Shown here one piece after another: positions 20,356-24,406 of a stretch of 60,477 bases of DNA (position 1 is the stretch's first letter; every line of letters begins with the position of its first letter). The DNA comes from Rubidibacter lacunae KORDI 51-2 (lineage in GTDB: Bacteria; Cyanobacteriota; Cyanobacteriia; Cyanobacteriales; Rubidibacteraceae). The DNA lies in NCBI RefSeq assembly GCF_000473895.1, contig NZ_ASSJ01000085.1:1-60477 (forward strand), read 5' to 3'. A model generated the notes under the pieces. The model saw only the letters and a list, made by a program, of their open reading frames with translations. It had not been told where the DNA came from and searched no databases. The position numbers and the translations under genes are program-made.

Positions 20356-21294
20356 TCAATCAGAACGCCTTTCTTGCTGTAAAACTGCCCAAGCTGCATA
20401 AGTGTGGCAAACGGCGTACCAGTTGAGGAAGAGGCGGGAGATCTCCAGAGCGAGGCGCGATCGCCCGCGCGCGCACAACCAGCTCAGCAACGGTGCAAGG
20501 GTGCGTTCGTTGAGGAGGCCGCCAAAGGTCAGCAACCCCCATAGCAGGCGGTGCACCCAAGTCATTTGTACCATCAGCCGCACGGCGAAGGTCGGATGCT
20601 TCTGGTAGAACAGCGCGCCCGTGCGACCGCGCTGCCGTTCGCGATCGATCAGCTGCGGCAATTGCTCGACTCGGAACGGAGGATGCCAGTGATAGCCAAC
20701 GGCCTGCGGGCATTTGACGAGCCTGAGACCGAGCTGTTTGAGTCGCACGCCCAGTTCTAGATCTTCCCATCCGTAAAGTTGGAAGCGCGTGTCGAACCCG
20801 CCTGACGCCTCTAACCAGTGACGCGCGATCGCGACGTTGCCGGTAGCAAAGTAGGCCGCTGAGTAGTCCGTAAGTTTATAGGGCTCAGCCGTCGGCTGGT
20901 CAAAATTGTTGGTATTGACAACCCGACCGTAGGTAAAGACGCGATCGCCCCAACGGCGGCGAGCGTCGCGCAGGGCAGTTGCGTGCGCTTGAAGAAAGAC
21001 TTCGGTAACGACCAGGTCGCTGTCGATGAAAATAATCTCGTTGCCGCGCGCGCTCTCGACGCCGAGGTTGCGGGCAGCGGCAGGTCCCCGGTGGTTTTGC
21101 TCGCAAACGCAAACACGCGCTAAGCCCGCAGATGCCAACCACGCTAAAGTCGCGTCGGTGGAACCGTCATCGACAACGATGACTTCATATCCGTCGACTA
21201 ACCGAGTGTCGTACTGCTGTTCTTCAAGGGCGAGCAAGCACTTTTGCAAGATCGGCAGGCGGTTGTAAGTCGGAATGACGACGCTAAAGAACAC
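20356..21294 (-). CDS. Family 2 glycosyltransferase
   Basis: A 312-residue GT-A fold glycosyltransferase, GTG start. It has the nucleotide-binding opening FFSVVIPTYNR, the first acidic motif VVDDGSTD, the metal-binding DxD-type motif FIDSDLVV, and an acceptor-side ED motif in GFDTRFQLYGWEDLELGVR, in the order expected for GT2 enzymes that build surface polysaccharides. Hydrophobic helices near residues 245-265 may attach it to the membrane. It follows the CHAT-domain gene by 49 nt on the same strand and may be the last gene of that operon. The donor and acceptor cannot be predicted. Confidence 0.88.
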   Translation of the reverse strand: MFFSVVIPTYNRLPILQKCLLALEEQQYDTRLVDGYEVIVVDDGSTDATLAWLASAGLARVCVCEQNHRGPAAARNLGVESARGNEIIFIDSDLVVTEVFLQAHATALRDARRRWGDRVFTYGRVVNTNNFDQPTAEPYKLTDYSAAYFATGNVAIARHWLEASGGFDTRFQLYGWEDLELGVRLKQLGLRLVKCPQAVGYHWHPPFRVEQLPQLIDRERQRGRTGALFYQKHPTFAVRLMVQMTWVHRLLWGLLTFGGLLNERTLAPLLSWLCARGRSRLALEISRLFLNWYAVCHTYAAWAVLQQERRSD

Positions 21295-21343
21295 GTGAGA
21301 GCCCTCTGATGAGGCGACCGACTCCAGATTCTAACGCGCGGCG

Positions 21344-22642
21344 CTATTGACCCAACTCTTGCGACGGGGGCGCACAGGCGATCGCATGCCCGGCCGAGGC
21401 GGTGCAGGGCGGTGGCAACAGCCACAGCGTGCCGATCGCACCGATGGCAACGCCGGTCAAACCAATCGCGATCGCGATTGGTAGGGTTACAACCCGAGTT
21501 TGCCAGGGTCGGGCAGGTCGGGTAGGCTCGCACTGCATGCGCTGCCAAGTCAGGAATTCTGCCGAGGGTTTGAGGCACAACGTCGGCAGCAGAGTTGCAC
21601 CGGGATAGCGGTCTTGATGCGGTTCTAAGCGCTTGCGCGCGGTAAAGATCGATGCTAGCAACGAGCGATCGCGGGCGAATTCCCGAAAAAAGTAACGCAG
21701 AAAGTCCACTGCTACCGTATCGGGGACTGGCTCGCGCATGACGATACTTTGAGGCAGGTTGATTTGCGCCAGTTGGTATGCCAATCCCAACCCGTCGCAG
21801 GAGTTAAAAATGGCCAGCTGCAGTCCGTTATGAATCGCCGCAGCCAAAGAGTCTCGCAAGTCTTCAACTGAGAGGCGTTCGTCGCAGTCGAGTTCGAGCC
21901 AGCCAAGGCGTCCGTCCGAACGGCTGCCACTATGTCCGGTGAAAACGAAGATGTGATACCCGCACTCGTCCCAGAGTGCCTCGCAAAGCTCCTGGTGGCG
22001 CGGTTGGATGAGGGAACGAACCTCGGCACCGCGCGCTTCAAGCTCGCGAACGACAGCCAGGTCGGCCTTGGTGTCGATGCCGTCACCGCGACCGACAACA
22101 ACCAACACGCGCGGACCGGTCGCCGGCAGCTGCGGCTCCACAAACGTGGGAGAGTCTTTGGGGGCTTGGAGGACGACTTCCGAATGGGGGTAGTGGGTTG
22201 CCAGCAAACGCCACGCTTGCCAGGGTAGGCGGTTGAGAGGGTCATCTTTACAATCGAGCAGGATGAAGATCTCGCCGTCACTCTCCTTGCGGTGCAATTC
22301 GCCGGCGTAGGCAATCAATCCGTCTCGGACGGTTTGCCAGCCGGAGCTGCTGCCGCGCTCGAGCCAACCATTGAGCTGCGCTTCCAGTCCGTCCAGGGCA
22401 GAACGTAAGTTGTCGAGCAGCCAATCGCGGTTTCCTCGCGCGACCGATAATCCCACGATGCGCGCGTCGTCGAGCTGGCGGTATAGGTGCTGGCAATCAC
22501 GGAGTGCTTGGAGCAATTCCGGAGGCAGTGCATAGAGACAGCCTTCGAGTTCCTTTTCAGGCCGGTGCGATGCCGTCAGCGTCGCGCGGTAGCGATCGCC
22601 GTTTGCTTGCCGTAATTTCAAGCGCAAGTATTGCTCTGGCAT
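21344..22642 (-). CDS. Membrane-anchored CHAT-domain protein (caspase-like protease family)
   Basis: A 432-residue protein. Residues about 175-340 form a CHAT domain (caspase-HetF associated with TPRs): the putative catalytic histidine is H237 in FVFTGHSGS and the cysteine is C282 in FNSCDGLGLAY, so the dyad is intact. The upstream part, about 1-170, is a conserved cyanobacterial N-terminal region (LLDNLRSALDGLEAQLNGWL). A single hydrophobic helix at about 384-410 and a short tail with two cysteines follow, which would anchor the protease domain facing the cytoplasm. It lies 88 nt after a DUF1822 gene and a sigma factor gene. Protease activity is inferred from the dyad; the substrate is unknown. 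Confidence 0.88.
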   Translation of the reverse strand: MPEQYLRLKLRQANGDRYRATLTASHRPEKELEGCLYALPPELLQALRDCQHLYRQLDDARIVGLSVARGNRDWLLDNLRSALDGLEAQLNGWLERGSSSGWQTVRDGLIAYAGELHRKESDGEIFILLDCKDDPLNRLPWQAWRLLATHYPHSEVVLQAPKDSPTFVEPQLPATGPRVLVVVGRGDGIDTKADLAVVRELEARGAEVRSLIQPRHQELCEALWDECGYHIFVFTGHSGSRSDGRLGWLELDCDERLSVEDLRDSLAAAIHNGLQLAIFNSCDGLGLAYQLAQINLPQSIVMREPVPDTVAVDFLRYFFREFARDRSLLASIFTARKRLEPHQDRYPGATLLPTLCLKPSAEFLTWQRMQCEPTRPARPWQTRVVTLPIAIAIGLTGVAIGAIGTLWLLPPPCTASAGHAIACAPPSQELGQ

Positions 22643-22730
22643 GGGCGGGTTCCGGGCGAAGTCGGGACGCGATCGCGCAGCTGGCGATCGAGCGGGCAGT
22701 TGGCTGAAGCAATCGAGGACGGACGGATGC

Positions 22731-23678
22731 TCAGGCAGTGAATATCTCGCGGACCCTCACGTCATCGAGGTCCAGCTCCAAGTTAAATGGCTCGTCGGGT
22801 TGGCAGAGGAAGTCGAGTTGCAACCAGTTATCGGCATCTCCTGCACGTACCTGCAAGCTCGCCTCATCTGACGCGTCCAATAACGTGGCGCACAAGCCCG
22901 ACGGCAAGCAATGAGCGTTCCCGCAGGGATAAAGACGCATACAAAGGCTCGTGCTGCGATCCGCGTGCAATGCTGCTTTCACGACGAGCACGATCGCTTG
23001 TTCGTCGCCACCGGTATGCCAACGCAGGACCTTACCGCGACTGATGTGGTGTGAAGCTTCGTCGGGAGCTGCCAACACCTCTACCGGCGGGGCTGCCGTT
23101 CGGAGCGTGCTGCCCGTCGCGGGTAAGAGGATGTCAGACGGCTCCCATTCGGGCGCGAAGATTCCCGCAAACCACTCCTGCAGGCGGGTATGACGGCTGG
23201 AGCGCTCCAGTACGCTGAGGAAGTCATCAAGCGACTGCAACTCCGCCAGCGGGACTTCATCGTCACTCCGGATCCGCTCGGGCGACACGAAGCCCAGCAG
23301 ATACGCCCAATCCAGGCAATCGCCGATGCGCACGATCGCGCAGCCGAGGCAGTCATCGGCAAGGGCAATTGGCACGGTCGCGGTCGCGGCGGCGGGCAAC
23401 ACGGGGCAGCAGGCGATCCGGCCGCGGCCCGGCACGATCAAGTCGTTGACGTCAAAGGCGGCACGCAGTCCTGGCTGCCAGCATTTGCCCTGCTGGGGTG
23501 CCGTCGCGATCGCCAAGCAATTTAGGTATGTCCGAACGGCACAGACGGCCAGCGTGTTGAGATAGACCTGCTTGCCTTTCTGAGGTGTGGCTTGCTCGGT
23601 AGCAAATTGCTCGGCGTATCGGCGAGTATGGCGATCGAGGGCGATCGCAATCGGTGGCGGTGCAGTCGCAGCATTCAT
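22731..23678 (-). CDS. DUF1822 family protein
   Basis: A 315-residue cytoplasmic protein of the cyanobacterial DUF1822 family. The real start is taken as ATG at 23678 (MNAATAPPPIAIALDRHTRR), which overlaps the stop of the sigma factor gene by 4 nt (ATGA), implying translational coupling; the upstream open extension lies inside that gene. Family-like features are the N-terminal helix A...FA.EQATPQKGKQVYLNTLAVCAV, a central W-rich region and the C-terminal DDVRVREIFTA. No enzymatic motif is visible. Genes of this family often sit next to sigma factor and CHAT genes in cyanobacteria, as here; a regulatory or partner role is inferred. Confidence 0.85.
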   Translation of the reverse strand: MNAATAPPPIAIALDRHTRRYAEQFATEQATPQKGKQVYLNTLAVCAVRTYLNCLAIATAPQQGKCWQPGLRAAFDVNDLIVPGRGRIACCPVLPAAATATVPIALADDCLGCAIVRIGDCLDWAYLLGFVSPERIRSDDEVPLAELQSLDDFLSVLERSSRHTRLQEWFAGIFAPEWEPSDILLPATGSTLRTAAPPVEVLAAPDEASHHISRGKVLRWHTGGDEQAIVLVVKAALHADRSTSLCMRLYPCGNAHCLPSGLCATLLDASDEASLQVRAGDADNWLQLDFLCQPDEPFNLELDLDDVRVREIFTA

Positions 23679-24406
23679 GGGAGAGGATCCAAATTGAGCG
23701 TGGAATTCAAGGTACGGACGAGTTCGGCTACGAGCGGGCGGCACTTTTTCTTCCAGTGCGAGTAGAGGGTTTGTTCGGGGATACCGTATTCGCGAGCGAT
23801 TTGACGTACGCGTTGGGGGGGCTCCTGTAGAAGCAGGCGTGCGACCAACTCGCGGCAGTGACAGTCGGGGTGCTTTCCCGGGTGGCAATTGCTGAGAGTG
23901 CCATTGGGATCGCGTTCGAGATAGTCCCAAACCTTGCGACCGTAGCGATGACGAGTGGCAGCTTGCTGCTCGGCAATTTGTCGTTCGACCAGGTCGAGCT
24001 TACTAGCGGGGTCGGGTAGGAGTTCGATCGGATCGACATCGATCGCGTCGGTTTTAAGATTGACGATGTACTTGTCGTCAGAGGTATACAGATCGCGCAC
24101 GCGCCACCGTAAATAACCGTTGACCCAGCGCACGAAACTTTCGTCTGCTGATACCCCACGCGGTTCAAAGGTATCGATGTTCTTGCAGACCCACTCGAGC
24201 GTGCGGTTATATGCTTCGGGATAGTCCTGGTGAGACGAGCGATAGAGACCGGGCAACCGCTGCATACAGGCAAGCAGTCGGTTGAGCGCTTTGCGTCGGG
24301 CAGGGCTTCCGGCCGGCACCCGACAGGTAGCTGCAATCGCCACCTGTAGGGCACTCTCGCCGGGGTCGCGATCGGAAGGCATGCGCGCAATCGTCATAAG
24401 CAGCAT
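23675..24406 (-). CDS. Sigma-70 family RNA polymerase sigma factor (ECF-like)
   Basis: A protein of about 243 residues with a C-terminal helix-turn-helix (QRVRQIAREYGIPEQTLYSHWKKKC) matching region 4.2 of alternative sigma factors. The N-terminal half (NRLLACMQRLPGLYRSSHQDYPEAYNRTLEWVCKNID...FVRWVNGYLRWR) corresponds to a divergent region 2. The open frame starts at a TTG at 24433, but ATG codons at 24406 and 24397 are more likely starts; none has a clear ribosome-binding site. The DUF1822 gene overlaps its stop by 4 nt and the CHAT gene follows. It probably directs transcription of this cluster or a dedicated regulon; targets cannot be deduced from the sequence. Confidence 0.82.
   Translation of the reverse strand: MLLMTIARMPSDRDPGESALQVAIAATCRVPAGSPARRKALNRLLACMQRLPGLYRSSHQDYPEAYNRTLEWVCKNIDTFEPRGVSADESFVRWVNGYLRWRVRDLYTSDDKYIVNLKTDAIDVDPIELLPDPASKLDLVERQIAEQQAATRHRYGRKVWDYLERDPNGTLSNCHPGKHPDCHCRELVARLLLQEPPQRVRQIAREYGIPEQTLYSHWKKKCRPLVAELVRTLNSTLNLDPLP

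Follow-up and report, generated by a model that had tools for sequence, protein, structure and literature searches.

The 60,477-nucleotide contig NZ_ASSJ01000085.1 of Rubidibacter lacunae KORDI 51-2 (hereafter the window) carries a compact leftward gene set coding for a diverged, probable sigma factor of the extracytoplasmic function (ECF) type, a protein of the DUF1822 family, and a membrane-anchored, caspase-like CHAT protease. We propose that the DUF1822 protein is a sigma-binding, probably anti-sigma, protein which would be cleaved by the CHAT protease to free the sigma factor, and that the trio thus may constitute a membrane-to-transcription signalling module; we give this interpretation about an even chance of being correct. 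The features of the locus are as follows; AF2 denotes AlphaFold2 models and pLDDT their predicted local distance difference test score.

23675–24406, minus strand: ECF-type sigma factor, diverged (243 aa; homologues point to a start nearer 24382)
23675–23678, minus strand: 4-nt overlap of the sigma stop with the DUF1822 start (from the coordinates of the open reading frames)
22731–23678, minus strand: DUF1822 protein, proposed sigma-binding/anti-sigma protein (315 aa; Pfam E=1.3e-50; AF2 pLDDT 90.6)
23124–23678, minus strand: N-terminal alpha/beta domain of DUF1822, about residues 1–185 (AF2; matches in distant lineages and in the divergent protein of genome G135 fall mainly here)
23100–23102, minus strand: Arg193 of DUF1822, near-invariant, in the disordered linker; candidate cleavage or binding motif (alignment and AF2)
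22737–23048, minus strand: C-terminal Ig-like eight-strand beta-sandwich of DUF1822, about residues 211–314 (AF2 and VIA)
21344–22642, minus strand: CHAT (caspase-like) protease with conserved N-terminal region (432 aa; Pfam CHAT E=6.1e-9)
21932–21934, minus strand: His237 codon of the dyad (from the translation; H in 74 of 75 aligned sequences)
21797–21799, minus strand: Cys282 codon of the dyad (from the translation; C in 74 of 75 aligned sequences)
21434–21490, minus strand: single transmembrane helix of the CHAT protein, about residues 385–403, after which about 30 residues remain (hydropathy)
20356–21294, minus strand: family 2 glycosyltransferase (GT2), a neighbour outside the unit (312 aa; 49 nt past CHAT; Pfam E=1.1e-25)

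The open reading frame (ORF) list of the window and its translations agree with the initial annotation, which had described four leftward genes (sigma-like, DUF1822, CHAT, GT2), the 4-nt overlap and the 49-nt gap between CHAT and GT2. The overlap makes translational coupling of sigma and DUF1822 likely; the CHAT gene starts 88 nt past DUF1822. The match of the DUF1822 protein to PF08852 is full-length and far above the cut-off (172.9 versus 25 bits, profile positions 1–369 of 370), and residues 191–342 of the CHAT protein match PF12770 with 36.2 bits (cut-off, 24), with no TPR match in Pfam. The window sigma protein on its own matches the NCBIfam model sigma70-ECF only weakly (E=0.21), and in Pfam yields generic helix-turn-helix matches only. 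Among 48 aligned members of its family, 21 match sigma70-ECF (best E=5.2e-12), which makes its description as a divergent sigma factor probable; Pfam reports Sigma70_r4_2 in 14 and Sigma70_r2 in three of the 48. The alignments omit 6 of 53 (sigma), 8 of 125 (DUF1822) and 11 of 85 (CHAT) non-redundant sequences, the dyad of the latter being examined separately. The R. lacunae genome contains a single DUF1822 match, a single match to the window sigma and a single good match to the window CHAT, besides five further CHAT-domain matches, all of other kinds. Scans of the locus for promoters and terminators gave chance-level hits only, and an Rfam scan gave no match.

The initial annotation had also suggested that the trio recurs in cyanobacteria. 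Of 292 genomes sampled from the phylum, 188 have a DUF1822 match, often more than one; 180 stretches around DUF1822 genes were fetched (149 from the matches listed in a Pfam survey of the phylum, 31 from a second search); neighbourhood counts refer to 161 stretches, including the window, with 166 DUF1822 genes, fragments included. "Sigma-like" denotes the window family (67 genes) pooled with a longer class (84 genes; clusters c3, c10 and c116). According to hhalign, the three clusters are mutually related; two c3 members match Pfam Sigma70_r4 (7.7e-6 and 1.3e-5), and two c10 members give no sigma match. A sigma-like gene lies immediately upstream of 142 of the 166 DUF1822 genes, as compared to 3 of 804 other genes of >150 aa in the same stretches; 151 of the DUF1822 genes have one no more than two genes upstream in the same orientation. 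CHAT follows downstream in 97 of 166 cases, a slightly generous count, because some of the sequences caught by the CHAT profile are fragments or match it elsewhere than in the CHAT domain, and both partners are present in 86. The genes are thus conserved as neighbours, far above background, in agreement with the annotation. The spacing of the 151 sigma-DUF1822 pairs is tight (overlap, 33; 0–60 nt, 77; 61–200 nt, 32; >200 nt, 9), although overlaps may be overstated, as ORFs were taken from their first start. In the converse sample, taken from named genomes and chosen by CHAT (the best 80 of 558 matches), 60 of 80 cases have DUF1822 at most 1.2 kb upstream, with three of the 20 cases lacking DUF1822 being at a contig edge; among the 60 DUF1822-CHAT pairs, sigma accompanies 30, and four are at a contig edge. 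Taken together, the two counts indicate that the trio is real and common, yet that pairs occur without the third gene. Natural sigma-DUF1822 or DUF1822-CHAT fusions were absent from the 181 stretches scanned. Tolypothrix PCC 7601 shows the gene order sigma-70–DUF1822–CHAT. A sigma-less DUF1822-CHAT class is seen in stretches L072–L076 and L078–L081, eight of these nine from family f6. The DUF1822 gene of L064 (genome G125) is split by a TAG codon and apparently is a degraded copy.

Such neighbourhoods have been predicted in silico before: Kaur et al. 2021 (PMC8195603), in the part of that article accessible to us, described EACC2-caspase neighbourhoods with an ECF sigma factor and a DUF1822 protein, the latter labelled "TPR protein" and assigned no role there. 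The window resembles them in its three gene types, the variable C-terminal part of the protease family and the coupled ECF sigma; its gene order fits their arrangement, which recurs at the 86 sampled DUF1822 genes having both partners. New here are a DUF1822 fold that is not of the TPR type, predicted docking of the sigma factor, and distant membrane-type proteins with the DUF1822 N-domain. A tested function for DUF1822 was not found in the open-access literature: the family appears in a mutation table in the accessible part of PMC9679502, that of PMC12691664 gives no function, and the term "DUF1822" is absent from PMC11119718 on cyanobacterial sigma factors.

The AF2 model of the window DUF1822 protein (118 sequences; pLDDT 90.6; predicted template modelling score, pTM, 0.75) consists of an alpha/beta domain and a beta-sandwich, with no helical array, and Pfam finds no TPR match in the protein; the designation as a TPR protein was therefore rejected. 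VIA comparison with the PDB assigned the common Ig-like fold to the C-domain (98 residues aligned at an rmsd of 3.1; best Z, 7.7), the matches being confined to this domain and saying nothing on the N-domain or on sigma. Foldseek returned no PDB match at E≤0.001 for the DUF1822 model or for the linked sigma-DUF1822 model described below, and sequence searches against the PDB gave nothing convincing (best E of the DUF1822 profile 0.11, to MHC chains). The interdomain linker is disordered, with pLDDT <50 at residues 190–195, and within it Arg193 is occupied by R in 108 and by R or K in 113 of the 118 aligned sequences. Arg193 was considered as a CHAT-specific cleavage site, which was rejected because the residue is equally invariant in CHAT-less operons; it remains a candidate motif.

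Physical association of the two proteins is suggested by structure prediction. The window sigma and DUF1822 genes are out of frame with each other; the pair modelled was that of a relative (L091), whose sigma and DUF1822 genes are in frame and can be read through a 39-residue intergenic linker (alignment of 15 read-through and 74 single-protein rows). The linked chain gave a pLDDT of 87.7 and a pTM of 0.79, with the linker disordered (<50). A simple estimate with assumed errors predicts a pTM of about 0.56–0.61 for undocked and 0.80 for docked proteins; the observed value, close to the latter, is good though not conclusive evidence for a predicted docking of sigma on DUF1822.

Genome distribution also connects the two genes. 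Among 20 genomes having DUF1822, 12 contain window-type sigma, as compared to one among 20 without a Pfam DUF1822 match, drawn from 104 such genomes (Fisher p=4e-4). In the exception, G135, the first 150 residues of an ORF beside the sigma gene match the window DUF1822 (31% identity over 153 aa, E=2.5e-10, from single-subject BLAST with the ORF start chosen by us), and a match to the C-domain was not detected in this divergent protein. That only the N-domain is matched beside sigma makes it look like the constant sigma companion. With G135 corrected, the search of the 20 genomes lacking a Pfam DUF1822 match found no window-type sigma that stands without a DUF1822-like neighbour, which would also fit an obligate co-factor. 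DUF1822 might accordingly be a co-activator or chaperone needed by sigma, with CHAT proteolysis turning the response off; tight gene spacing and predicted docking are likewise compatible with this alternative. We nevertheless consider it improbable, because a segment of the zinc anti-sigma type in distant relatives and the precedent of Csx30 (see below) indicate inhibition.

These distant relatives were found in 20 of the 31 stretches that came from the second search (L192–L211); they belong to families f31 (18 stretches), f39 and f30, which lie outside the class of the window. PsaA and PsaB are absent from all 11 genomes of these families examined, ten of which are among the 20 fetched, so that the distant relatives are non-photosynthetic as far as tested; they may be Vampirovibrionia-like members of the phylum. 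In these stretches, the DUF1822 N-domain heads a longer protein, which has a TM-like (transmembrane-like) segment in 17 of 20 and the motif HxxxCxxC in 8 of 20 cases. Among 11 of the proteins scanned, zf-HC2 is listed for six and TonB_2 for ten (E up to 0.02); we take HxxxCxxC and zf-HC2 to be marks of zinc anti-sigma (ZAS) factors. A gene matching the sigma profile of cluster c13 occurs in 13 of the 20 loci, directly downstream in 12, and the one c13 member scanned in Pfam matches Sigma70_r4_2 (4.4e-6). The layout of N-terminal part, TM segment and C-terminal end recalls that of anti-sigma factors in the membrane, which supports the view that the DUF1822 family arose from anti-sigma proteins. 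A large protein of cluster c12 follows the DUF1822-sigma pair in the distant lineages (e.g. L192:1–3259); the one c12 protein scanned contains a double zinc ribbon, an AAA ATPase and TPR regions.

In the protease, the dyad residues H237 and C282, which the initial annotation had called intact, are present in the window protein, and both are kept in 98 of 112 CHAT-family profile matches (74 of 75 aligned, 24 of 37 others); the 14 dyad-incomplete matches are gapped at one or both positions and mostly are short fragments or matches outside the CHAT domain, and one has P opposite H237. The N-terminal region is conserved as well (W93 in 73, P140 in 73 and W141 in 72 of 75 aligned sequences). Hydropathy gives the one TM helix expected of a membrane-anchored protein, as had been claimed, and the charges around it suggest that the protease side is cytoplasmic. 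A Pfam scan of 56 family members found the CHAT domain in all of them and varying C-termini, among them CHASE2 (33), Peripla_BP_6 (9), nSTAND1 (3) and WD40 (2). In L148 and L138, the copies nearest to that of the window (identities of 50 and 46% for CHAT, 43% for sigma and 34% for DUF1822), the TM helix of CHAT is followed by a PBP_like_2 domain (L138:3893–6016 and L148:6890–9025). This domain is presumably PstS-like; its presence suggests ligand sensing, perhaps of phosphate.

A constant N-domain and caspase combined with variable C-termini has been proposed to reflect cell death or conflict functions (PMC8195603, accessible part). On this view, which follows the autopeptidase proposal of Kaur et al. 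2021, the substrate would be the protease itself or another effector, and sigma-DUF1822 would form a side arm. TPR-CHAT genes in the stretch, which would agree with such a role, are found in 34 of 97 CHAT-positive and 11 of 69 CHAT-less cases. We regard this alternative as unlikely, given that the commonest C-termini, CHASE2 and Peripla_BP_6, are of the sensor type, and that many DUF1822 genes have sigma without a CHAT call (65 of 166). It also seems rather remote that the window copy no longer signals, with a sensor-less, vestigial CHAT protein and a sigma factor too diverged to work. The short chain beyond the TM helix and the E value of sigma alone (0.21) would be in line with decay, as would a genome of the same family as the window (G159) holding short sigma and CHAT pieces beside DUF1822; the three open frames, the dyad and the tight spacing speak against it. 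The pieces in G159 (L117) apparently are degraded.

Our preferred reading is that of a proteolytic switch on transcription. DUF1822 is predicted to bind the co-encoded ECF-type sigma and would keep it inactive. CHAT would act as a caspase-like protease held in the membrane by one TM helix, with its protease side in the cytoplasm, most scanned relatives carrying a sensor-type domain (CHASE2 or periplasmic-binding-protein) after the TM helix, which the window copy lacks. On a trigger, CHAT would cleave DUF1822, perhaps in the flexible interdomain linker, and the released sigma would then transcribe its targets. Inhibition of sigma by DUF1822 and its signal-dependent cleavage by CHAT are both inferred by analogy with characterized systems. 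By cleaving Csx30, the CHAT protease Csx29 (TPR-CHAT) relieves the inhibition that Csx30 exerts on an ECF sigma factor (PMC10028731, accessible part). This CASP/Craspase system likewise combines a CHAT protease, an ECF-sigma-binding inhibitor and a sigma factor, shared features that for the window are partly inferred. Unlike the RNA-guided Craspase (Cas7-11), the protease discussed here is TM-anchored, with a sensor-type domain in relatives, and the PDB search with the DUF1822 profile described above revealed no convincing relative. In the classical ECF pairs RseA-RpoE (DegS/RseP) and RsiW, as outlined in the same part of that article, the sigma inhibitor is removed by signal-triggered proteolysis, as is proposed here for DUF1822. 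In contrast to RseA and RsiW, the putative inhibitor DUF1822 is a two-domain protein without zinc motif or TM segment, and it would be cut by a caspase-like protease, which in relatives forms one chain with the sensor. Compared with the EACC2-caspase neighbourhoods of PMC8195603 (accessible part), the DUF1822 model lacks TPRs and the linked chain predicts sigma docking.

A number of observations weigh against this interpretation. No sigma call was made at 15 of the 166 DUF1822 genes; a further 65, including one at a contig edge, have sigma yet lack a CHAT call, so that CHAT is not an obligatory partner of sigma-DUF1822; and 26 of the 60 DUF1822-CHAT pairs of the CHAT-first sample have no sigma. 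The window-type sigma and c3 are related only weakly by hhalign (E 0.008, probability 4.8), so that the two pooled sigma classes may not be homologous. The docking inference is based on the pTM of a single linked chain, which comes from a different genome (L091). The invariance of Arg193 extends to operons without CHAT (31 of 31 in one class), and the window CHAT contains no sensor domain, its chain ending about 30 residues past the TM helix. The zinc motif HxxxCxxC is present in none of the 166 cyanobacterial DUF1822 proteins, window copy included, and among the 11 distant relatives scanned, zf-HC2 is above the cut-off in one only (L192, 2.1e-6). At the eight distant loci bearing the motif, the sigma gene is clear in three and weak in L211 (E 0.0012), and sigma profiles found none at the remaining four.

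The initial annotation had connected CHAT proteases with regulated proteolysis and phage defence. The former agrees with our best reading, but the latter is unsupported: PADLOC reported only BovA at E=0.07 for CHAT (chance level) and nothing for sigma or DUF1822, and the phage records contained no match to the window DUF1822, although neither search excludes a defence role. Membership of the GT2 gene, which had been left open, was rejected. A GT2 counterpart exists in 77 of 80 genomes of the order, with 58–72% identity outside the window's own genome, and occurs also in G121, G014 and G056, all without a DUF1822 match. Among the matches listed for DUF1822 stretches, the best-scoring GT2 relative reaches only 27% identity. 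It thus is an independent core gene of the order and a bystander.

DUF928 is encoded nearby, within the same stretch, in 40 of the 97 cases with a CHAT call and in 1 of the 69 without. It is the next gene after CHAT in 32 of 88 cases (e.g. L156:6912–7685 and L215:11305–12117), at times with two-partner secretion (TPS) genes, and a Nostoc plasmid contains the run hypothetical protein (in the sigma position)–DUF1822–CHASE2–DUF928–S-layer–ShlB. Cell-surface genes are plausible targets of the sigma factor. Elsewhere in the R. lacunae genome, on contig C41 (9983–22814; loci L316, L317, L322 and L323), TPS and CHAT domains lie in the same frame and, in two cases, share open-frame lengths of 2958 and 1290 aa; they likely represent secreted TPS-CHAT fusion proteins.

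More broadly, and more tentatively, with somewhat less than an even chance, these loci may represent widespread one-protein membrane receptor proteases, in which a cytoplasmic CHAT domain cuts a new type of anti-sigma protein, DUF1822, to switch on a dedicated sigma factor. If so, Csx29-Csx30-sigma would have a counterpart that is chromosomal and non-CRISPR, and the distant non-photosynthetic relatives would still show its older origin in anti-sigma factors. A role of DUF1822 as sigma partner would provide a function for a large protein family and for many unassigned cyanobacterial sigma factors, and caspase-like proteases, usually seen as enzymes of death or defence, would be tied to ordinary membrane-to-gene signalling.

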